Shown in pieces: positions 1,374 to 22,459 of a stretch of DNA of 30,724 bases. The DNA comes from a virus. Both the position numbers and the translations under genes were made by a program. Below the pieces are notes generated by a model. The model ran no database searches. It was given only the letters and a program-made list of their open reading frames with translations, and was not told the DNA's origin. The number at the start of each line of letters is the position of its first letter. Position 1 is the stretch's first letter. The stretch covers positions 1 through 30,724 of the IMG/VR virus record IMGVR_UViG_3300047461_000024. One strand, 5' to 3'.

Positions 1374-1521
1374 CTTTTAGTTCTTTGTATATCTTGATAC
1401 CAAGGTAAAACAAAGTAGTCAAGCCCACAAGGATTGCTACTGATGTATTTACACCATCTAAGGTAAGTGTGCCAAGTAAACCAGTAACTGCGATTGCAGG
1501 GGTTAAGTGCGGACTATTCAT
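1357..1521 (-). CDS. Small holin (gp17.5-like, class II type), 54 aa
   Basis: This short gene sits between the gp16 homologue and terS. The translation starts MNSPHLTPAIAVTG and ends YKELKDGKSK. It has two hydrophobic stretches, about residues 8-21 (PAIAVTGLLGTLTL) and 27-42 (SVAILVGLTTLFYLGI), followed by a short basic tail. That two-segment, charged-tail pattern and the position directly upstream of the small terminase match T7 gene 17.5, the holin that permeabilises the inner membrane at lysis. The ATG overlaps the gp16 stop by 8 bases (ATGAATAG), and the gene's own TAA lies 17 bases inside terS. Sequence identity to a named holin cannot be tested here; the call rests on size, topology and synteny. 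Confidence 0.8.
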   Translation of the reverse strand: MNSPHLTPAIAVTGLLGTLTLDGVNTSVAILVGLTTLFYLGIKIYKELKDGKSK

Positions 1522-4500
1522 TTAAGTTTAGTAGGTTAGTTATTACATCCTCAGAAGCTCCAGCTTTACCTGCAACACTCGCTTGACGAATCTGCATATA
1601 CTTAGCCTTAACATCTGGGAACTCTTCTAGCATCTGAGCAAAAGCTACTCTACGATATCTAGATATTATTTTATTTAAAATCTGTATTCTAGGACTCTTG
1701 ACACCACCCTCAGAGATTGTTGATAACTTCTGATAACGCTTATCTTTGATTACCTTCTCTAGAGATTGTCTAAGTGTTTTACCTCTTAGTTTAAGTTCAC
1801 CAAGCATCTCAAGTTGTCTATCATAAGCTGATTGATTCTTATCGTTCTTATACTCGGTCATATCAATCAATCTATGAAGCTTAGTCTTAGGATTAGTAAA
1901 GCCGTGTTCTAGTCGTGCTAGTTCTTCAAACACTGCATCTCCCTTACGAGTAGATACTCTAGAAGGATTGAACGGTCCTACGATAGGATAGTTCTCTGCA
2001 ATGATAGGTTCACCTAGAATGTTACGCTTAGGATCTAAGATATCATTACCGTTAGGTAACTTCTTGAGGATCGCATCACCAAGGTTACGAACTTCTCTAG
2101 TAGTAGTATCACCACCAAGAGACTGACCTTGGTATAAAATGTTTGGTACGAATCCACCAGCAAGGTTAGTGAACAGCTTCTCCATCTTTCTATCTGGATC
2201 TGATAACGCATCAGAGATCAACTGAAGACCTGCTAGGTATGACTTATCAGTAATATTACGAGTCATTGAGATCGTAGCCGCTGCGAACACTTGTTCTCCA
2301 ACTGTTGAGTTGATCTCACCAGCTTCATCAAACTGATCTACTATGTCAGCCAATACACCAAAATGAGTACCGAAAGGATCAAGTCCAGAATAACTAAAAT
2401 ACTTATCACCCACTCGGAATGAATACCTCTGCCAGCCAGTTTGCTCAAGTGTTTTAAGCTGTGCAGGATCTTTTGGACCACCAGAAGTAATAAACTCACG
2501 ATTAGATAGAATCATATAGAGGAGTGTCGCATTCATCATGGACGCTGTTGCTAATTTACCAGCAGCTCTAGCTTTCTCTATAGGATTACGACTGTTAAGT
2601 TCTTGACGAAGTTTACGCTGAGTATCCTTGATCATAGGCATATCTGGCATATTAGCAAGAACTTGACGAGATGCTTCTGGTGCAGCAAAGAATGCACGAT
2701 CAAATGAGAACTTTAAAAGATTGATAGGAGTTCTAACGAATGGGAAGATAAACTTCATGAAAGGTACAGTCTTGACGACTGCACCAGCCAACTCAGCAGC
2801 TTTACCTGCATCATTTGTGAATGTACCGTAGCGAGCAAACTCTAAACTACGAGCGGACATGTTATCAATTTCGTTTAGGTTTTCAAAACCAAGACCTCCG
2901 TCTTCGTATTTCTTTAGAGCGTCACCACGGATCGCTGTTTCTTGATCAATTATTTCTTGGATTTTAGCTGCTCTTTCAGACGGTAGTAAACGCTTACCAC
3001 CTGCTGCCAAAGCATCTTCATCCATTTTTTGAACTGCTTGATTTGCATATTTAATTACTCCTGTATTTGAAAAGGCACGCTCACCTTGTACCATAACAGT
3101 GTCCATACCTTTTGCTACATATTCAGCAAGGTCGTCTGGATTCTTGATACCTAGTTTCATACCTTTAAGGGTTAGTTCTAGTTTTGCATTCTGACGGAAT
3201 AGAGATTGTTTGAACACCTCATCCATAGATAGCAATAGTTTAGTTGGAATGTTTACAACATTATCACCAAACCAGTTAAAGGCTTGACGCATAGTTTGCT
3301 CTGGAGCTGCGTCTGCAAAGTAAGTTGGACGCTCTGTCTTAGCTGTATTCTCAAGTGGAGACCGTCCTACATCTAGTAGTTGTTCATCTAACTTGTAAGC
3401 TTTCAAGAAGAAGTTCATACCTTCTCTGAAAGATTCTAGTGTAGCAAACTCTTTCATGACATGACGAGTGATAGCTTTGTCTACGAACACACCACCAACA
3501 GCTGCTTCTACTTGTAGTAAAGTCTGTGCTACCATATTACCTACAGCATTCTTTACGAAAGTACGAGGACCAGATAACAATGAATTGATATACCAGTTCT
3601 GTGCCTTCTCAATGAAACCGTTTGGATCTACTTTACGAGCTTGTTTAGTAAGCCCAAGCATATTTTGTATAGCATTCTTTGGATCACCATCACCAGCTAA
3701 TAAGATTCTGTTAACAATCTCATTAAAGTTTTGTTTACCCATGTTATTTGCCATGTATTCATTAACAATCTCTTGGTTTCTGATCTCTATCTCATTTAAA
3801 GTAATCTTACTGCGTTTGAATTGTGTAGATTGTAGACCTTGTCCAAATCCTCTACGAAGATTAGAACCAGCTGCGGAGATACTCATTAGTTTCTTGATCT
3901 CACCTATAAGCTGTGCTTTGTCTATGTCTGTTACACTTGGACCTTTCTTAGAAATATCATCTGCTAACTTGAACACTGTATCAGCTTGACCTAATGCTAA
4001 AGATTCTACTGCGTACATACGAGATGCGATTCTACGAAGTTCGTTAGCATCTTTCGTAGCAGCGTTTACTTCAGACATAATGAAATCTTTATCTGTTCCA
4101 GTAAGTTCTGAGAATCTATTTACAGCTTGTGCAATACCTCCAGCTTCTAAAGATTCTGGGCTTAGTTTTGGATTTGCGGATAACTCAGCTTCTACAACTG
4201 ATTCAGTTTTAGCAATCAACTCACCAAGGTCATTAGCTGTTTCTACTTGTCCTAGTGATTTAGAAACACCTTTTACAGCGGCTTCCCCACCTCGTTTCAA
4301 ACCACCAAGATCTACCTTTGCTTCGTTGAATGCTTCACTTACAACTGCACTTCGTTTTTGTTCGTGTATTTGTCGGAAAGCTTTTGAGCTTCGTGTTGGG
4401 AACATTCTACGAACATTCTCTGGTGCATAGTCCACAGCACGGAAGCGTCTCTTATCTTTACTAACTAAGTCTGAGTATGCTGTTACAACATCTTCTAACG

Positions 4501-7500
4501 CTGTACCTTTAGCATCAAAACCTAGTAATTCTTTAAGATAAGATATAATCTCATCAAATAGATTCTTACCACCTTCACCCTCAATACCTTTGAGATAGTT
4601 TTGGAAGTTAGGGCTAGACATAGCTTCAGCGATAAACTCATCTACATTAGATAATCCATACCATTCTGAGATGGAATCACTGTTTGATTTTGCGTAATCA
4701 TCAATGTCATTAAGAGCATTACGGATATTCTTAAATTGATCTGGTGCATTGTCTACAGCTTTTAGATAAGTTCTAAGAAGTTTACGAAGTGGTTCTGATT
4801 GGTTAGCATCATCAGCATAAGCTGCAACTGTTGATAGATAGTCTTCACCTTTTAAGTTTCTATTTACTGCTGAGATCTCTACAGGAATCTTTGTTACAAC
4901 ACCAGCGTGAATTGTTTCGTGTAGTAATGTTCCTTCAGAGAACACAGTGTCCGCATCTATCTCACCTTCAAATACACCTTTACGATTAGTGTACATACCG
5001 ATTGATCCTCGTCCTGTAGTTACATCAAATGGATTATAGTCACCAGCAGCACCGTTACCAAAGCGAGCTTCAATATCAGTACGCATAAACTCTGTATCAC
5101 CTTCATGTAGTTTTAGTAATGCTTTAGAAAGTTTACGGACTTCTGGTGTAGAGCCATTGGTTGCTAAACGATTCAACGCAAACTCTGTAGTTACAGACTT
5201 ACCAGTAACTGTTTCTATAACTTCATCCTTATCAGCTCTAGCTTCTTTCGCCATAGCTTTTACAATGTTATATGTTTCAGCTTCGTTAAGTCCTAACGCT
5301 GTGCGTAGCTCTGGATCTTTAATATTAGAACCGTATGAGTTTTTAGCGGAGCTTTTCTGACCCCAAAGAGATACACCTTTGGTTACTGAGTCTTTCATCT
5401 CTTGGTTAATGTCAATTACATGAGCATCTTGTTGTACTTTACCTTTACCTGCGTTTAGTATGACATCGTATCTCTTAGCTAACCTACCGTTGTTAAGGGC
5501 TTCTGCAAACATAGCAGCTTCATCATCAAGATTATCATCACCCCATCCTATATAATCATTAAACTCTTTAACCTGCTCATCATCGTATACATCAATTTCT
5601 CTTCGTAATTGTTTATCATACAAACCAAAACCGCTTTCTTGTAGAGTGTCCATAAAATTTACAAGTGGCATCTCATTGTTCCCATCAAATCGTATGCTAC
5701 CGTCATCCAGTAATTCTGCCGAACCAAAACTATGGATATATTCTGCATTTAATTCTACCTTTTCAAACTGTCTACTAAATTCAAGTTGTTCAGTTCTTGT
5801 TTGTGACCCAAAGCTTTTAGCAAATCTATCTAGAGCAGCTGGCATCTTCTGGTCATATTGTTGAATAAACGGAGAAGCGTTAACTTTAACTGAGTAATCC
5901 TCTTGTGACCAACCTTCTGGTTTTTTAAGTAAGTCGTCTCCAGCTTCTTTTCCAAACATCTCTTTCAATTCTTTGTCGTTTTTCACAACAACAGTTTGGG
6001 TGCTATCGTCTCTAGTTACATCAAACGATCTACTACCATCTTCATTAATAGCATTTAACTTAATGAAATCTAAATCAGCGTCATATAAACCTGCGACATC
6101 TACGCCTTTAGGAAACGACACTGAATCGTAACCTTCTCTAGATGCAAGTTGTAAGATTTGACGGATACCAGAACTGATGTAACTATCTTCTAATGGTACT
6201 CTACCAGTAAAATCTTTTTGTTCTCTTCTCTTTTTCTTAACAGCTTGAATGAAATCAGATTGTAATTCTTCTATTTGTAGAACAGTTTTATTTCCTAGTT
6301 TGCGATCTGTAGTACGGAAATGCATTACATTAGTTCTACCTTTATCACTTGCTACTTTCTCGTAGTGAGAGTTATATTCTCCTAAATCATCTCTAGCTAA
6401 CACGAAGTCATCCACAGGTGCTTCCACCGTAAACTCACGATAGTTCTTACCTTCTGGAGATTCTGGTCTAGGTTGTCTAAACTGAGAATAGGTGTCTTTC
6501 GGTGGTTGCTCTACAAGTGTAGTCTCCAACTGTTTGTTTTCTATCATCTTCTTAACCTGTTCAGTCTGTACTCTACCTTTAGCATCTTTAGGTAACAGGT
6601 CATAACTTAGATTCATCCACTTTAATTCTTCTGCTGTACCACGCTCACCATACTTAGTTAGAAGCTCAGTAACCTTTTCTGGACGCATTGCAGCAGGAGC
6701 TTTATCAATAGCTCGTAACGCAGGGCTATACACATTGTATGTATCTACTTCACCAAAAGTTTTTATTTGATTAAACGCTGATTCATTCTTACGGAGAAAT
6801 TCACCACCTACATTTATATTCACAGCATATCGTTTTCCATCAATTTCAATATTGTTTGGATCGTATACTGTCTCCTCTGGTAACTCAATACCATATTTTT
6901 CTTTTAACTTTTTAACTACATCCACTGACAGATTACCATTAGTACGGTTGACCTTCATCGCTTTCAACCCTGCAATCAATCCTGTAGCTACACCAGTAAG
7001 TCCAAGACCTTCTAGAGAGTTCTTGAATCTTCCTTCTATTACTCCTTCATCTTCTGTAGATTCTAAGAAATCTGTAATAGGGTTACGAAGTGTGGGGAAA
7101 GTATTGATAAGGTTAGATAGTCTTGCTTCTTGTTCCTCAAACGCTACGAAGTCAGTAGCTGATTCCGCAGCTAGAACACCTTTCCAGTTAAGAACATCTT
7201 TACCTTTCTTGTTTACGGTAGTGAATTGTTTACCAAAGCGTCCAATCTTAGAAGCAGCTTTAGCACCTTTAGCAATAGCTCCAAATGGTACAAGGAATTG
7301 TGTTACACCTTCAGCTAAACTACCTGCAATTGTTTCGGACTGTCCTAAGAAACGGTTATCGTAGTCTGGTAGTGTGTCACCTAGAGCAAAGTCAGCTAAG
7401 TTATATACACTTTTAACTGCTCCTTCTACACCTCTAAAAGGTGCTGCCATTAAATCTTTTAATTGATTTGGGTTCTTAGAAGGGTCTTGATCATCTAAGA

Positions 7501-7528
7501 GTAGATCTGGTTTGAATCCTAATGCCAT
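1514..7528 (-). CDS. Internal virion protein D (gp16-like), giant, with HEXXH metallopeptidase-like site
   Basis: At 2004 residues this is far longer than T7 gp16 (about 1318), the ejected core protein that forms the genome-translocation channel. Position after gp14 and gp15 homologues and before the holin supports the assignment. No lytic transglycosylase motif of the T7 type is apparent in the N-terminal part. Instead I see: a hydrophobic N-terminal stretch (about 70-95); around 403-425 the string HFRTTDRKLGNKTVLQ followed by IEELQSDF, resembling a module that recurs in large polyvalent phage proteins; HETIH at 870-874, an HEXXH zinc site; EFIAE at 964-968 downstream, a plausible third ligand; and LLSGPRT near 1317-1323, a motif I associate with the same polyvalent proteins. 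The C-terminal 700 residues are probably the channel-forming part. The ATG follows the gp15 stop by five bases. Confidence 0.88.
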   Translation of the reverse strand: MALGFKPDLLLDDQDPSKNPNQLKDLMAAPFRGVEGAVKSVYNLADFALGDTLPDYDNRFLGQSETIAGSLAEGVTQFLVPFGAIAKGAKAASKIGRFGKQFTTVNKKGKDVLNWKGVLAAESATDFVAFEEQEARLSNLINTFPTLRNPITDFLESTEDEGVIEGRFKNSLEGLGLTGVATGLIAGLKAMKVNRTNGNLSVDVVKKLKEKYGIELPEETVYDPNNIEIDGKRYAVNINVGGEFLRKNESAFNQIKTFGEVDTYNVYSPALRAIDKAPAAMRPEKVTELLTKYGERGTAEELKWMNLSYDLLPKDAKGRVQTEQVKKMIENKQLETTLVEQPPKDTYSQFRQPRPESPEGKNYREFTVEAPVDDFVLARDDLGEYNSHYEKVASDKGRTNVMHFRTTDRKLGNKTVLQIEELQSDFIQAVKKKRREQKDFTGRVPLEDSYISSGIRQILQLASREGYDSVSFPKGVDVAGLYDADLDFIKLNAINEDGSRSFDVTRDDSTQTVVVKNDKELKEMFGKEAGDDLLKKPEGWSQEDYSVKVNASPFIQQYDQKMPAALDRFAKSFGSQTRTEQLEFSRQFEKVELNAEYIHSFGSAELLDDGSIRFDGNNEMPLVNFMDTLQESGFGLYDKQLRREIDVYDDEQVKEFNDYIGWGDDNLDDEAAMFAEALNNGRLAKRYDVILNAGKGKVQQDAHVIDINQEMKDSVTKGVSLWGQKSSAKNSYGSNIKDPELRTALGLNEAETYNIVKAMAKEARADKDEVIETVTGKSVTTEFALNRLATNGSTPEVRKLSKALLKLHEGDTEFMRTDIEARFGNGAAGDYNPFDVTTGRGSIGMYTNRKGVFEGEIDADTVFSEGTLLHETIHAGVVTKIPVEISAVNRNLKGEDYLSTVAAYADDANQSEPLRKLLRTYLKAVDNAPDQFKNIRNALNDIDDYAKSNSDSISEWYGLSNVDEFIAEAMSSPNFQNYLKGIEGEGGKNLFDEIISYLKELLGFDAKGTALEDVVTAYSDLVSKDKRRFRAVDYAPENVRRMFPTRSSKAFRQIHEQKRSAVVSEAFNEAKVDLGGLKRGGEAAVKGVSKSLGQVETANDLGELIAKTESVVEAELSANPKLSPESLEAGGIAQAVNRFSELTGTDKDFIMSEVNAATKDANELRRIASRMYAVESLALGQADTVFKLADDISKKGPSVTDIDKAQLIGEIKKLMSISAAGSNLRRGFGQGLQSTQFKRSKITLNEIEIRNQEIVNEYMANNMGKQNFNEIVNRILLAGDGDPKNAIQNMLGLTKQARKVDPNGFIEKAQNWYINSLLSGPRTFVKNAVGNMVAQTLLQVEAAVGGVFVDKAITRHVMKEFATLESFREGMNFFLKAYKLDEQLLDVGRSPLENTAKTERPTYFADAAPEQTMRQAFNWFGDNVVNIPTKLLLSMDEVFKQSLFRQNAKLELTLKGMKLGIKNPDDLAEYVAKGMDTVMVQGERAFSNTGVIKYANQAVQKMDEDALAAGGKRLLPSERAAKIQEIIDQETAIRGDALKKYEDGGLGFENLNEIDNMSARSLEFARYGTFTNDAGKAAELAGAVVKTVPFMKFIFPFVRTPINLLKFSFDRAFFAAPEASRQVLANMPDMPMIKDTQRKLRQELNSRNPIEKARAAGKLATASMMNATLLYMILSNREFITSGGPKDPAQLKTLEQTGWQRYSFRVGDKYFSYSGLDPFGTHFGVLADIVDQFDEAGEINSTVGEQVFAAATISMTRNITDKSYLAGLQLISDALSDPDRKMEKLFTNLAGGFVPNILYQGQSLGGDTTTREVRNLGDAILKKLPNGNDILDPKRNILGEPIIAENYPIVGPFNPSRVSTRKGDAVFEELARLEHGFTNPKTKLHRLIDMTEYKNDKNQSAYDRQLEMLGELKLRGKTLRQSLEKVIKDKRYQKLSTISEGGVKSPRIQILNKIISRYRRVAFAQMLEEFPDVKAKYMQIRQASVAGKAGASEDVITNLLNLNE

Positions 7529-7533
7529 AATTT

Positions 7534-10044
7534 TTAATATTTAAATACTCGTTTTAATACTTGGGAATGTGCTATTGCTTGTGCTTTTAAAAATCTTTGT
7601 CTCAATACACTATTGTTTGGATCTAAGTTCAGTACAACCATGTACGCTGTGATCTCTTCCTCGTAGTCTTGTGACTCTTGAATCATATCATAAGATATAA
7701 TAGGATTCCGTGTAAAGTCTAAGTTCTCTACATTGATAGGTACTTTACCTTCTAGTTTACCGTCTCGTATTTCTTCTATAGTAACGATAGGTTTATCATT
7801 GTCTAAAGATCTTTGTGTAGCTAGAACAGAAAAGTATTTTCTTCTACGGTGAGATTGTAGAGCTTTGTCTCGGAAACCAAACTCAGAAGCTGGTTCTTTA
7901 GTCGCTTCATCTCGTAGTTTACCTAGATCTTCTTTTTGAGACTTTCTAATTAATTGATTACGATTGTTTTTACGATCTGCATAGCCAGCATCACCAGCTC
8001 CAGCAGGAAACTGTGAAGTACCAGCTTCTCCTTCTGGATGGTACATAACATCACCTACTGTTACAGAATCACTGTAGGGATCTTTGTACATAGTTTGTTT
8101 CTTAGGATCACCAAACTTTTCTTGAATCTCTGGAGTAATCTCTGCTTCTTCTCGTTCTTGTTGTGATTGAATCCTAGCGTTAAGAATATCTTCAGATGGG
8201 TTCTCAAACTTTTCGTCTATAAACTGTGCCATAGATTCATCTAAATAATTACGAGCAGCTATCTCTCTGTTTTGTATAACCGCAGCCATGTTACCAGATG
8301 ATCTTTCTGCCTCTGTGAGAGGAGCGTTTAGAATGTTATCTACACCTTCTCGTAACTCAGCTACGAATGGTTTAGTCATGTCTAAAGCTTGTGAGTTAGA
8401 GTACACGGACATCCCAGTTAACTCATCGTTAGCGGTTAACTGTCTAACTAAAGCTTGACTAACACTATTGTTAGTAGCAGATAAACCAACACTGTTATAG
8501 AACTTACCTGTTTGTCTAGTGGTTATGAAAGTGTCAGAATCTTGTCGTTGTTGCTCTGCGATAGCTCTTGACTGTTTATATACAGCTAGAGTAGCTTGAT
8601 CTTTCTTTTGCTCACCATCTAATGTAGGATCATTATATATTCTTTTTAATTCTACTTCTAACTCTTGTGTTAAACTAGATACCTTACTAGTAATTTCCGT
8701 ATCTTCTAAACCATACAAGTTAACACCTTCAATACTCTCTCCATAAGCTGTCGTTAACTCTGCTTCAATTTTATCTAAACCAGCTTTACTGTAAAAGTCA
8801 CCTTCCGCATCTTGTAGAGCTGTGATATCTTGGCTTAACCCAGATATAATCTTCGCTCTAGTTGTAGCATCTGGGTTGTTGTTTACATATTGATCTCTAA
8901 TTGTAATATATAAATCTTCATTTGTTTTTACCTTAGATAAATCTACGGTAACAGTTTCATCTGAATCTAGCAACGGTAACTCTACTTCTCCTAACGACTG
9001 ACCTTGTCTAAGAGATTCACTAGAACTTAATATAATTTGTGCTAAATCTTTTTTAGTGTTGTTTATGTCCGCCTCTTCTCGTTGTCGGTTTGTTTCTTCT
9101 TGTGCCTCTAATACATCATTAAGATCGTTAAGTAAACTATCACCTAATTCAGAACCACTACCAATAGTTAAGAACCCTTCATCTTTTTCTAACTTCTCTA
9201 CAAATGCACTAGCAGTTGCAATATCTAACTCAGCTGCTTTTGAAACGATATCTTTAAGCATCTCTGTTTGTTCTGGTACTGTCTTATTATTTGTACCTAA
9301 CTGAAACTGTTGAGTAAAGTCATCTAAGTTTTCATTACCTATAGCAGCGATAAGATTGGTTTTAGTATTGTGATCTACTTCTCCTTGGAAGTATTCGTCT
9401 TGTCTCGTATTAATTACTAACTCTTCTTGAGCTTCAAACTTCAATCTAGATTCATTAAACGCTCTAAGTGCATATCCAGATAAATTATTATCTTGTATCA
9501 GTTGATCAGCAATGGTGTTCATCTGATCTCTAACTGGTATATAATCACCATTCTCGTCTCGCTTAGAAGCGTAATCCTCTATGTTTTCTCTTAGATCCGC
9601 TTGATACTGTTGAGCTAAACGATCACCAACGACACGACTAGCACGAATATAGTTATTAGGATTCTCTGAGAACTTGATTAGTTTCTTTCTTTCAGCTTGA
9701 TCTAGCTTACCAGAGAACTCATCAAACTGTTCTTTAACTGGATCTATGTCACCTTTTTGAATAGCTTGTAAGATCTCTGTCGGTGTGGACGCTGCTAGAT
9801 CCTTAAACTCTTCTTGTCGTTGTTGCTCTATGTTACCTAATCCTCTAGCAATAGGTCCAGCATACTTACCTAGAGCGTTTGATAACTGACTAGCTGTATT
9901 AGATTGGGTGTATCTAGGAGCTGCTACAGTATATCTACCAGCTTGTACACTAGGAGCGTTGAACACTTGATCATCAAGATTGAGTTCTACTTGCTCTCGT
10001 TTGTCAGAGAGTCCTAGTAATGATTTTAAAGTTTGTTTAGCCAT
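7534..10044 (-). CDS. Internal virion protein C (gp15-like)
   Basis: This 836-residue protein is a component of the internal core that is ejected into the host and, with gp14 and gp16, forms the trans-envelope channel. The assignment rests mainly on position and size (T7 gp15 is 747), between a clear gp14-like gene and the giant gp16-like gene. The composition is hydrophilic, with long helical, Gln/Glu-rich segments and no signal peptide or membrane helix. The N-terminus (MAKQTLKSLLGLS) followed by a Pro/Tyr segment (VAAPRYTQSN) is like other marine podovirus gp15 proteins as far as I recall. Translation is probably coupled: the ATG at 10044 overlaps the gp14 TAA in a TAATG junction. Confidence 0.82.
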   Translation of the reverse strand: MAKQTLKSLLGLSDKREQVELNLDDQVFNAPSVQAGRYTVAAPRYTQSNTASQLSNALGKYAGPIARGLGNIEQQRQEEFKDLAASTPTEILQAIQKGDIDPVKEQFDEFSGKLDQAERKKLIKFSENPNNYIRASRVVGDRLAQQYQADLRENIEDYASKRDENGDYIPVRDQMNTIADQLIQDNNLSGYALRAFNESRLKFEAQEELVINTRQDEYFQGEVDHNTKTNLIAAIGNENLDDFTQQFQLGTNNKTVPEQTEMLKDIVSKAAELDIATASAFVEKLEKDEGFLTIGSGSELGDSLLNDLNDVLEAQEETNRQREEADINNTKKDLAQIILSSSESLRQGQSLGEVELPLLDSDETVTVDLSKVKTNEDLYITIRDQYVNNNPDATTRAKIISGLSQDITALQDAEGDFYSKAGLDKIEAELTTAYGESIEGVNLYGLEDTEITSKVSSLTQELEVELKRIYNDPTLDGEQKKDQATLAVYKQSRAIAEQQRQDSDTFITTRQTGKFYNSVGLSATNNSVSQALVRQLTANDELTGMSVYSNSQALDMTKPFVAELREGVDNILNAPLTEAERSSGNMAAVIQNREIAARNYLDESMAQFIDEKFENPSEDILNARIQSQQEREEAEITPEIQEKFGDPKKQTMYKDPYSDSVTVGDVMYHPEGEAGTSQFPAGAGDAGYADRKNNRNQLIRKSQKEDLGKLRDEATKEPASEFGFRDKALQSHRRRKYFSVLATQRSLDNDKPIVTIEEIRDGKLEGKVPINVENLDFTRNPIISYDMIQESQDYEEEITAYMVVLNLDPNNSVLRQRFLKAQAIAHSQVLKRVFKY

Positions 10045-10601
10045 TATTCTGTTTTGATTCCACTATACACAGAGAGACCAGTGCTTACACCACTTAGTAA
10101 AGCTTCTCCAAAGTTTGGTTGTTCTATTGGTTTATTTATAGTCAACAGATTGTTGTAAGACTGTTGGTTCATATCACGCATAGCAAGGTTTCTAGCAACA
10201 TCTCTTTGTTGTCCTTGTCTCATCAACCCAAAGCGATATTTAGATTCTTGTCTAGAGAAATCATTAAGTAAAGCATCTACAGAGTTACCCTTCACTCCAG
10301 CTTCTCCAGCTGCTACTCTTGCTCTAGAACGAGCTTGTAAAGCTTTGATAGAAGCATTCTGTAATTCTTGAGCTTCTTGCTCCATTTCAAATCTTTGTTG
10401 AATACGAGCTGCTGAAGTCTGTTGACGATATCTTGCTATTTCAGCTTTAGAAGATCTAGCTTGAGCTGCTGCTTGTGCTTTAGCACTAGCTTTCTGTCCT
10501 GCGAAAGATAGCCCTGCTTGAGCTATACCAAGTCCTGCTCCGACTTTTGCCGCAGTGGACATTGCTCCGACTTTTGCTACGATTGGTGCTGCGAATCCCA
10601 T
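10044..10601 (-). CDS. Internal virion protein B (gp14-like)
   Basis: This 185-residue protein corresponds to T7 gp14 (196), the core protein thought to form the outer-membrane part of the ejection channel. It has the family's typical build: an N-terminal Ala/Gly-rich hydrophobic segment (about 1-38, MGFAAPIVAKVG and on), a long Ala/Gln/Arg-rich helical or coiled region (40-125) with the motif GVKGNSVDALL, and a small hydrophobic C-terminal segment (GEALLSGVSTGLSVYSG). The gene begins one base after the gp13-like stop and ends in a TAATG junction with gp15. Confidence 0.85.
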   Translation of the reverse strand: MGFAAPIVAKVGAMSTAAKVGAGLGIAQAGLSFAGQKASAKAQAAAQARSSKAEIARYRQQTSAARIQQRFEMEQEAQELQNASIKALQARSRARVAAGEAGVKGNSVDALLNDFSRQESKYRFGLMRQGQQRDVARNLAMRDMNQQSYNNLLTINKPIEQPNFGEALLSGVSTGLSVYSGIKTE

Positions 10602-17068: not shown

Positions 17069-17307
17069 TAGCATTTCCACTTTCTAAGTGCTAGAGCTTT
17101 ACGAGTTGGTTTACCTTTTGAATCTTTCATAGGTCCTTTCACTCCACTCATCCTTGCACAAAAAGACCGCTTCCTTGGTCCTCCCTCTGGTTGCGGTCTC
17201 TTAAGGTTTGAGCCTGTCTTACGGTTGTAATATTTTCTACCAGCTTCTGAAAGACCACCAGATTTATTCTTGTGTTCTTTACGAAGCGACACGCCTTTTC
17301 GTTTCAT
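17068..17307 (-). CDS. Basic DUF6321-like protein (GGLSEAGRKYYNRKTGSNLK)
   Basis: 79 residues, very rich in Lys, Arg and Gly. It contains GGLSEAGRKYYNRKTGSNLK (18-37), then RKRSFCARMSGVKGPMKDSK and a C-terminal RKALALRKWKC. This GGL..GR..YNR.TGSNLK...SFCARM.G.KGPM order is what I recall as the DUF6321 type, found in phages and bacteria, function unknown. Two cysteines, in SFCARM and at the C-terminus, are conserved in my recollection. It is coupled by TAATG to the membrane protein upstream and to the cysteine-rich mini-gene downstream. Placement between scaffold and capsid suggests a virion or assembly role; this is inference. Confidence 0.78.
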   Translation of the reverse strand: MKRKGVSLRKEHKNKSGGLSEAGRKYYNRKTGSNLKRPQPEGGPRKRSFCARMSGVKGPMKDSKGKPTRKALALRKWKC

Positions 17308-17702
17308 TATTTATTTAATGTACTGCTTCCAAAATAAAATCCTATTATTGCATATAAACTTTGAATTACTGAATCGTGAATCAAGAGACCTTCTTGTGTC
17401 TCATACACCATTGTGGTAAAGATCCACCAACCTTTCTCTACAGGGATAGTTACCCCAATATCTGTAAAGGCTACAATGAATGGAGCGACAACGATAGCAA
17501 ACAGAACGGTTGCTACAATACCTCGTCTTACCCATTGACCAGCTACCCTTTGAGCAGCTCTGTCGGCTGAGTCATCAGCAACTTGCTGAGTCTCTATCTT
17601 AGATTTAGCTAACTCTATTTGGCTTTGAACCATCACACCTACGAGCTTAAACACGAAGCCGCTGATTGATCCACCAATTAAACTAATTAATTCCATATTC
17701 AT
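17307..17702 (-). CDS. Three-segment membrane protein, holin-like
   Basis: 131 residues. A hydrophobic N-terminal segment (about 4-26), an Ala/Gln/Asp-rich amphipathic helix (27-58), a strong membrane helix (62-81, IVATVLFAIVVAPFIVAF) and a final hydrophobic segment (113-127, IQSLYAIIGFYFGSS). The layout and ending IIGFYFGSS resemble the three-TM holin family of phages and gene transfer agents. It could be a second holin, or a membrane factor acting during head assembly, given that it lies between scaffold and capsid. An AGAGGGA stretch precedes the ATG after the scaffold stop. Its TAA overlaps the next ATG. A second in-frame ATG at 17696 is possible. Confidence 0.68.
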   Translation of the reverse strand: MNMELISLIGGSISGFVFKLVGVMVQSQIELAKSKIETQQVADDSADRAAQRVAGQWVRRGIVATVLFAIVVAPFIVAFTDIGVTIPVEKGWWIFTTMVYETQEGLLIHDSVIQSLYAIIGFYFGSSTLNK

Positions 17703-19996: not shown

Positions 19997-20237
19997 CTTC
20001 TGATATTGGGAATGTTACACTAGTAACAATAGAGGGGAGTTCCTCCTCTAGTAATTCGTAGTCCGTAACGAATAAAGCATATTTGCCATCAGCAGTCGCT
20101 TGTGGGTAAGTGTGATAACGAGTACCAGAACCTACTCTGTGGTAAGCATAGCCTCGTCTAGCACCCTCTATGTCTGCTCTTGCAATCGCATCAGCCTCTG
20201 TGTCGTATACTAAGTAGTTAATTGTTTCTTCGCTCAT
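19989..20237 (-). CDS. Hypothetical protein, 82 aa, upstream of portal
   Basis: An acidic protein starting MSEETINYLVYDTEADAIAR and containing GYAYHRVGSGTRYHTYPQAT, then GKYALFVTDY. The pattern YDTEADAxARAD is one I recall from small conserved proteins near head genes in marine podoviruses and other phages; no function is known. Neighbours support a structural or assembly role: TAATG coupling with the fibre-like gene upstream and an 8-base overlap with the portal downstream. No membrane segment or signal peptide. Confidence 0.7.
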   Translation of the reverse strand: MSEETINYLVYDTEADAIARADIEGARRGYAYHRVGSGTRYHTYPQATADGKYALFVTDYELLEEELPSIVTSVTFPISEDA

Positions 20238-22459
20238 TATGAAATATTATTTGCTAATTTAAGATTATTTTCAATTTCTGTAAAATCTGATGTTTTATCT
20301 GAACCATATACAATAAATGAATCAAAGAATACACCCTTGTTTGAATTATTATTTTGATGTCTAAATAAAAACTTCATTGGTCTTATTTCATCATCTACTC
20401 TTGCAAGTGAATCTATTTGAGTTCCATTTTTTCTAAGTACAGCAGTACCTCCATTTTCGGCACTAAATAAAGTTACTACTGAATCAAATGTATTGGTGGT
20501 TGATGTAAGTCCAAAGTCATCTGTTGCATTAAGCAAAGGATGTATTCCATTTGTATTTAGCAAAAGTCTAGGTGAACTACCAACATTGTTTCCAGCGAAT
20601 AATAATGAAAAACTTCTAGTGGTATACATACTACTAAACATTGTGTATGGGTCTGATATGCCAGTATCCATTTCTAAAAATTGTATTGCATTACTAGCAT
20701 ATCTAGCACCCATTACTGCTGGGTTGCCATTTGTCATTTTGCATTGACCACCATTCTGCACAACAAAAGGTTGTTTAACAGCCGAAGATTGACTAGCATT
20801 ATTACCATTTCCGCTTTGGTCATATAGTGTTTGTACAACACCATTACGAGCTATACGAGATACCTTAAAACCAGATATAGTACAAGTTGGATTATCTTGT
20901 CTTATTTGAAAAGTTATAAACTTAGCATTAGCATCAGTTGATGTAAGCGATGCAACACCAAATCCATATTGTGGTAAAGTGTAAGATGCAGAAGCATTTG
21001 CTCCAGTTACTGTACTAGCTCTTAATCCTACTAGTGTGCTTTCGCTATAAGCATTGTGACTACAATTAAATGAAATATAAACTGTTTCTCCAACTGGTAC
21101 TGATTGTTTCAACTCAATTCCAACAAATGATTGTGTTTGAGTTCCAACAAATGTAAATCCATCTTTTGAATTATTAGTGTATGTACCAGAACTTCCAGTA
21201 AATTCAGTTCCTTCCAAATCATTCGCATCATTGTACAAACCATAATAGTTATTTACATTAGATGCTATCTTAAATAACTCATCCTTTTCATCTGTCTGGT
21301 ATGCAAATGTTTCATATATCTTACCTTGGAATGTAGCTGTTCCAGTAGCTACACCACCAGTATCATTTGCCAATCCCAAAGCACCTATAACAAAAGAGTT
21401 TTGGTTAGATATATATACTACATTTCCCCAATCTGCTCCATTGTTATTTCCAAATGCTCTTCCAAAAATAGATACTTCAGCATCTGTTTCAGAGTTAGAA
21501 CCTACTCTACCTATAGTAAATCTTTTTAATTCACTACTGTTATCTACTGTATGAGAAACAGATGTAGAGTTTCTTGTAATAAATATAGATGAACTAGATG
21601 CTTCTTGTATACCAAAAAATCTATTAACTGCTGATTGTCTGCTCACAGATACTGGATACATCCCACTACCAGTAGTATCTAATCTATCTGATACACATCC
21701 TAATGTAAGTGCATCGTCAAAATTAATAGATGTATCTACTAAGTATTGGTCTGTAGCGGCTGGTGTTGTAACTGTACCACTACCCTCAAATAATATATGG
21801 TCTAATACTGTACCATTACTTGCAATCTTGGGTTGTCTTAAAGCAGAATTTTGTGTTGCTCCAGTTGTTGCACCAGATTGGTTATACCAAGTGTGGACAA
21901 AAGCATCTGTTCCACTAATAAAATCTCCAAGTGTAGTAGCACTTGTGCTTCCACTTTCGCCACCTTGTTCAGCTACATTTGTAATAGCAGAGCTTGCACT
22001 TACCTTATCGTCTGAATCAAAAGCTACATCTACTTCTACATTATCCGAGCTTCTACGAATACGAAGAGCATTGCCATTATAACCAGACCTAATCTTTCTG
22101 AGGCTATGTAAAGACCTAGCAGTAGCAATATCACCTAGTGCTGTATTCTCTAGTTTACCATTTACCCAGTTCTCTAATTCACCTCCAGATACTTGAGAAG
22201 CTGTGAAGTTCTGCTCATCATTAATAGTAGTGTCAGTATCATGAGGCTCTCTACGAACTCTTACCACTGGTTCGTTATAAGATCCTAAAGCTCTTAATGA
22301 ATAGGCAGCTGCGGCATCTTTAGCAAACCCTTGAGACAAGAATGTTTCACCCCTACCATCTCCAAGAATATGTGATAGATCTCTTGTGAGTGGGAATGAT
22401 AATGAATCAGTAGAACCTGTGTAAAGGTTCTGCGTCTCTACTTGTTTGCGTACCGTCAC
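20237..22459 (-). CDS. Fibre or adhesin-like structural protein with two glycan-binding-type modules
   Basis: 740 residues, rich in Ser, Thr, Asn and Gly and predicted beta-rich, with no signal peptide. The N-terminus contains FPLTRDLSHILGDGRGETFL then AYSLRALG and VVRVRRE. Two repeated modules follow the pattern W/LY-(D/N)QSG-n-ATQ-n-QPxI/V: TWYNQSG near 190-196 with RQPKIASNG, and TLYDQSG near 544-550 with KQPFVVQNG. The first is preceded by SLRKIRSGYNGNALRIRRSS. I associate this set with arabinofuranosidase-B-like and lamin-G-like sugar-binding folds in marine phage tail proteins. It probably recognises the host surface. Translation starts at GTG 22459; no ATG lies close. It is not homologous by eye to T7 gp17, whose usual place after gp16 is empty here. 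Confidence 0.72.
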   Translation of the reverse strand: MTVRKQVETQNLYTGSTDSLSFPLTRDLSHILGDGRGETFLSQGFAKDAAAAYSLRALGSYNEPVVRVRREPHDTDTTINDEQNFTASQVSGGELENWVNGKLENTALGDIATARSLHSLRKIRSGYNGNALRIRRSSDNVEVDVAFDSDDKVSASSAITNVAEQGGESGSTSATTLGDFISGTDAFVHTWYNQSGATTGATQNSALRQPKIASNGTVLDHILFEGSGTVTTPAATDQYLVDTSINFDDALTLGCVSDRLDTTGSGMYPVSVSRQSAVNRFFGIQEASSSSIFITRNSTSVSHTVDNSSELKRFTIGRVGSNSETDAEVSIFGRAFGNNNGADWGNVVYISNQNSFVIGALGLANDTGGVATGTATFQGKIYETFAYQTDEKDELFKIASNVNNYYGLYNDANDLEGTEFTGSSGTYTNNSKDGFTFVGTQTQSFVGIELKQSVPVGETVYISFNCSHNAYSESTLVGLRASTVTGANASASYTLPQYGFGVASLTSTDANAKFITFQIRQDNPTCTISGFKVSRIARNGVVQTLYDQSGNGNNASQSSAVKQPFVVQNGGQCKMTNGNPAVMGARYASNAIQFLEMDTGISDPYTMFSSMYTTRSFSLLFAGNNVGSSPRLLLNTNGIHPLLNATDDFGLTSTTNTFDSVVTLFSAENGGTAVLRKNGTQIDSLARVDDEIRPMKFLFRHQNNNSNKGVFFDSFIVYGSDKTSDFTEIENNLKLANNIS

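Follow-up and report, generated by a model that had tools for sequence, protein, structure and literature searches.

Results

A probable zincin domain in a giant gp16-type protein

Residues ~790-1020 of P0001, a giant gp16-type protein encoded in the window (the whole 30,724-nucleotide stretch of viral DNA analysed, IMG/VR record IMGVR_UViG_3300047461_000024), are best read as a zincin metallopeptidase domain, not as a chance motif. This reading, put forward in the initial annotation from a HEXXH motif and downstream glutamates, is well supported: homologues, invariant residues, selection and the predicted topology all agree with it. The source is a marine virus infecting bacteria that appears to have a zinc-dependent protein-cutting domain inside a giant injected protein. 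This type of zincin is already known from the N4 virion RNA polymerase (vRNAP) and polyvalent proteins, and the P0001 domain is not unique to this phage: sequence comparison found what seems to be the same domain in many well-known short-tailed phages, where it is often labelled as a cell-wall enzyme. The features discussed below are listed in Table 1.

Table 1. Features of P0001 and its neighbours, with window positions (A1 and A2 are the alignments described in the text)
Feature	Position	Strand	Evidence
gp16-type internal virion / ejection protein P0001	1514..7528	-	intact ORF, PHROG_6651, C-terminal gp16 matches
N-terminal gp16 module, residues 1-200	6929..7528	-	common to HTVC025P (29-192) and L075 (21-195, 50% identity); dN/dS 0.044
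Second conserved module 'EELQSDF', residues 401-580	5789..6328	-	53-56% identity to L055/L056 over 401-500; L003 22%
Fast-evolving segment before zincin, residues 581-774	5207..5788	-	60% identity, dN/dS 0.61 vs L002
Putative zincin metallopeptidase domain, ~residues 790-1020	4469..5161	-	A1 and A2, own HMM, AF2 model, dN/dS 0.088
HETIH 870-874, two predicted zinc-ligand histidines and predicted general-base E871	4907..4921	-	invariant in A1; 35/35 similarity-fetched loci
E964, first E of EFIAE, predicted third zinc ligand	4637..4639	-	A1 invariant; 58/59 in A2; second conserved helix of model
E968, second E of EFIAE, non-ligand	4625..4627	-	column variable in A2
C-terminal gp16 module, residues 1251-2004	1517..3778	-	AP013544 (29%), HTVC025P, CRP-118 gp16 matches
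gp15-position gene, 836 aa	7534..10044	-	assigned from position alone
gp14-type internal virion protein	10044..10601	-	PF24072, E 1.6e-27

Gene context of P0001

The window covers part of the genome of a T7-like phage. Its right side encodes an RNA polymerase, endonuclease I, a primase-helicase, a DNA polymerase and an exonuclease; the middle encodes the portal, capsid, tube, nozzle and gp14-type proteins; and the left side carries the gp15-position gene, then the gp16-type gene, then the terminase gene (the portal, capsid and scaffold genes were named from a reading of their translations). P0001 is translated from an uninterrupted ORF of 2,004 amino acids. Its residues 1571-1994 matched the internal virion protein family PHROG_6651 (E 2.4e-44), and its C-terminal part was similar to gp16 proteins from pelagiphages, roseophages and cyanophages. 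This homologous C-terminal region, together with the order gp14, gp15 slot (by position only), gp16, terminase, places P0001 in the T7-type gp16 position, and the protein is presumably delivered with the DNA. The gp15-position gene gave no Pfam match, no significant PHROG match and no lysozyme domain.

Other observations concern the neighbourhood. A 740-aa protein encoded upstream of the portal gene (20237-22459) is possibly fibre-like, while the interval separating the gp16-type and terminase genes holds no large fibre gene, a difference from T7. A small protein with apparent membrane segments, encoded between the scaffold and capsid genes (17307-17702), is possibly holin-like.

Homologues of the domain

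A tblastn search with residues ~772-1021 against 50,697 phage records returned 434 records at E <= 1. Pectobacterium phages supplied the top matches (7e-8), which were ejection proteins. Others came from Klebsiella, Pseudomonas and Vibrio phages (internal core proteins), from N4-like phages (virion RNA polymerases), and from crAss-like and other phages (large proteins). HExxH was present at the equivalent place in 14 of the 14 distant phage proteins fetched, including those of KP34, VP46, RHph_TM29 and Bp5, in which the BLAST match lay only downstream of the motif. Two giant viral proteins of 3.7-3.9 thousand residues (L106:253-11898 and L091:1-11211) carried the same zincin, beside an inorganic pyrophosphatase domain in the former and an ART-PolyVal domain in the latter.

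Two alignments were built: A1 (15 sequences), in which the window and L002, a near copy of it, were aligned with 13 phage virion proteins that are very distantly related; and A2 (59 sequences, window included). As A2 takes in loci picked by a HELIHAAT-like pattern, its HExxH conservation is biased, whereas that of E964 is not; HExxH conservation was therefore judged on A1 and on 35 loci found by similarity and not by motif. All 35 of these loci had HExxH, although two, L050 and L051, were short and doubtful. In the domain tree, the window grouped with L002, L055 and L075 (support 0.92).

An HMM built from A2, with the window among its sequences, covered P0001 residues 759-1071. When PDB sequences were searched by profile, matches were obtained to PhiM1 gp48 (8vb2, residues 295-555, E 3.5e-57), an internal virion protein (9sfn, 4.3e-55), gp10 (23sg, 4.5e-39) and a virion RNA polymerase chain (11fw_A, E 2.8e-12). 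Positions 2092-2248 of PHROG_2206 (virion RNA polymerase) matched the window domain (E 7.9e-6) as well as 13 of 15 relatives. None of the Pfam and NCBIfam models recognised the window domain. The MPTase-PolyVal family PF18818 matched only one of 15 relatives (E 0.085) and not the window. Likewise, the SprT family and lethal-factor-type families were matched by some relatives but not by the window, and were set aside; for SprT-like PF10263, five of 15 relatives matched (best 4.9e-7).

Predicted zinc-site residues

HETIH was found at residues 870-874 of the translation and EFIAEAM at residues 964-970 (window 4619-4639), 90 residues past H874, as initially annotated. Only four columns were invariant in A1, namely H870, E871, H874 and E964. 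The initial annotation had left open whether E964 or E968 was the third zinc ligand. E964 is the likely one, judging from the aligned sequences, because it is among these invariant columns; it was also present in 58 of the 59 A2 sequences, the exception being misaligned and having its own HELVAY. E968 was ruled out as a ligand by the variability of its column (W in 22, E in 14, Y in 7 and Q in 5 of the 59 sequences).

HExxH alone is weak evidence, because it appeared in 0.9% of 2,000 shuffles of P0001 and because T7 gp16 has a chance HERLH at position 559, where the domain profile gave no match. For HETIH, a chance origin was rejected on homology.

Predicted structure

The AF2 model computed from A2 had a mean pLDDT of 78.5 and a pTM of 0.79; a single-sequence prediction (pLDDT 38) was useless. 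In model numbering, two helices (7-17 and 21-33) were followed by three strands (44-49, 55-58 and 68-73), HExxH (96-100) on helix 91-106, several helices, and E964 (190) on helix 188-197. The model thus gives a predicted mini-zincin topology, with a helix, three strands, the HExxH helix and the E964 helix in zincin order.

In BFVD, Foldseek matched the model to 21 viral models (E <= 0.001). Those with names were in many cases internal virion proteins, polyvalent-domain proteins, structural proteins or virion RNA polymerases, and one was a crAss protein whose name describes it as a zincin protease fusion. Against the PDB, matches were weak: the best was 4l7a, a putative zinc metallopeptidase (E 0.27), and N4 vRNAP was among the others. 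At the level of helix order, the model gave no sign of the non-convergence of histidines and glutamate that the initial annotation had named as evidence against a zincin.

Close relatives, selection and modular organisation

Loss of HEXXH in close homologues had been named as evidence against a zincin. The motif was kept in all four of the closest (L002, L055, L056 and L075), as was DEF[IVL]A; overall identity to P0001 was 90% for L002 and 43-46% for L055 and L056. Between the window and L055, the motif blocks formed local identity peaks (49% and 61%). In L056, the gp16 gene was broken into two ORFs near residue 1598, by a frameshift or an assembly error.

Between the window and L002, the zincin domain was 97.5% identical with a dN/dS of 0.088, versus 0.29 for the whole P0001 gene, and is under strong purifying selection. 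Residues 581-774 evolved far faster than both neighbouring regions; they may serve as a linker, form a recognition surface or be a region that is cleaved.

The gp16 of the pelagiphage HTVC025P aligned with P0001 residues 29-192 and 1313-1974, and that of the roseophage CRP-118 likewise has the N- and C-terminal backbone modules in common with P0001. Both proteins differ in being ~800 residues shorter; relative to HTVC025P, the extra residues lie between the two modules and contain the zincin and module 401-580. This module ('LQIEELQSDFIQ...') had no Pfam match; L055 and L056 have relatives of it, as does L003 within a large ORF. Neither HExxH nor a zincin profile match was present in gp16 of HTVC025P, CRP-118 or AP013544. 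Since related pelagiphage and roseophage proteins do without it, the zincin is, on sequence comparison, an optional insert or module in this gp16 backbone.

Comparison with known phage systems

The HEXXH domain of N4 vRNAP was described in 2017 as a zincin, the commonest domain of polyvalent proteins (PMC5512222). The P0001 domain resembles it and polyvalent MPTase in having a HEXXH helix, a downstream glutamate helix and a three-strand core within a giant late phage protein, and in its profile match: the region matched in PHROG_2206 is the one that Iyer et al. unified with zincins in N4 vRNAP (PMC5512222). The three features used by these authors were all seen in the model, namely the HEXXH helix, the Glu helix, and an N-terminal helix with a three-stranded sheet before HEXXH (PMC5512222). 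Unlike in N4 vRNAP, the P0001 zincin lies in a T7-type gp16 backbone, without an RNA polymerase, and the H874-E964 spacing is long (90 residues).

By position, the tetrameric ejection protein gp48 of Pectobacterium phage PhiM1 (8vb2) has the same role as P0001, although it is shorter (1,263 aa versus 2,004 aa). Its residues 268-528 have been called endolysin/exotransglycosidase-like, not peptidase (PMC11440229). The internal virion proteins phiKMV gp37, LUZ19 gp37 and KP34 gp48 also had HExxH and a domain match; they differ from P0001 in being shorter and in having no match outside the zincin region.

T7 gp16 is like P0001 in its internal core gene position and order, but gave no zincin profile match and carries a transglycosylase, as stated in the initial annotation: Pfam SLT matched residues 15-127 (E 1.7e-31), and with this positive control no SLT domain was found in P0001 by Pfam. 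A simple swap of zincin for transglycosylase is not supported, as backbone relatives without the zincin were also without SLT. Deposited records of phiKMV-type gp37 and relatives frequently bear the name 'endolysin domain' or 'peptidoglycan lytic exotransglycosylase', yet Pfam did not detect the T7 SLT domain in phiKMV gp37. We infer that the region forms a zincin and inherited its name from T7 gp16; the zincin reading probably holds for many of the ejection proteins annotated as 'endolysin'.

Discussion

The domain is probably a zinc-dependent gluzincin peptidase of the N4 vRNAP/polyvalent type, packaged uncut and cutting protein after ejection. As conservation and topology suggest, H870, H874 and E964 would hold zinc and E871 would activate water. 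The domain would travel uncleaved inside the T7-type core protein, which would leave the virion before the genome or together with it and would refold at or inside the inner membrane; the refolded peptidase would then cut protein. On our analysis, the domain most likely acts by proteolysis after ejection, its substrate being either the phage's own ejected polypeptides or a protein of the host. The former substrate, whose cleavage would release or dismantle parts of the ejectosome, is slightly favoured because hosts range widely, at a probability that we put somewhat short of even. In N4, the authors reported no degradation of purified vRNAP (PMC12633501); spontaneous self-cleavage is thus not supported, and something would have to trigger it once the protein has been ejected.

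The polyvalent zincin has been proposed to act in self-processing or in attack on host proteins (PMC5512222), and the alternative of a specific host target (a defence, transcription or envelope protein), cleaved by the peptidase early in infection, is only slightly less probable than cleavage of the phage's own polypeptides. It gains from the domains found alongside: relatives lie in giant proteins next to polyvalent effector domains, ART-PolyVal, LPD39 and a pyrophosphatase among them, and host proteolysis is one of the options given by Iyer et al. (PMC5512222). A 2025 preprint on N4, which places HExxH in subdomain C1, models the C-terminal part as cytoplasmic and membrane-tethered (PMC12633501). 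A single conserved target is harder to reconcile with a domain common to phages of very different hosts, and the low dN/dS, from the one close pair compared, does not point to an arms race. Cleavage before or during packaging, of gp16 or other core proteins, has a precedent in the proposal for P1 DdrB discussed by Iyer et al. (PMC5512222). We consider such maturation very unlikely, because N4 vRNAP is reported to be packaged unprocessed (PMC5512222) and the PhiM1 protein was modelled at full length in the capsid with the zincin region present (PMC11440229).

Of the substrates suggested in the initial annotation (peptidoglycan cross-links, virion core proteins, a host protein), peptidoglycan is the least supported. 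An endopeptidase that opens peptide cross-links for passage of the ejectosome through the wall, replacing the T7 transglycosylase, would fit the failure to find an SLT or lysozyme domain in P0001 or the neighbouring gene, and wall degradation was suggested by the authors for the PhiM1 region (PMC11440229). This role is nevertheless improbable, because a separate lysozyme adjoins in a phiKMV-type relative (phikF77 gp40), so that the zincin is no simple substitute, and because VgrG2b, a periplasmic gluzincin effector, did not hydrolyse peptidoglycan when tested (PMC6899460); the gp16 proteins that lack both zincin and SLT also speak against it. That the domain is catalytically silent, its motif being kept for folding or metal-stabilised packing, is highly unlikely. 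The literature searched reports no activity for any member, and HExxH is found in other metalloenzymes too, as the N4 authors point out (PMC12633501); however, the predicted general base E871 is as invariant as the ligands, and a purely structural zinc site would need none.

The zincin domain ties together ejection proteins of phages with little else in common. In the part of the literature that we searched, a zincin had been stated for N4-like and polyvalent proteins only, and we found no earlier statement for T7-like ejectosomes. Our results suggest that 'endolysin' or 'exotransglycosylase' is a wrong label for the zincin region of the large ejection proteins of phiKMV, KP34 and PhiM1 types. 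A wider and more doubtful idea is that the genome-entry machines of otherwise unrelated phage groups all require the same conserved zinc protease as a working part. If true, these groups would be the T7-like phiKMV, KP34 and PhiM1 types, the N4-like and crAss-like phages and this marine lineage; they would have in common a step such as the freeing of the ejectosome or the cutting of a host membrane protein, overlooked in T7-like phages because the region was labelled endolysin. In the domain itself, HExxH and one glutamate offer a precise, testable set of residues for an unexplained step of phage entry.
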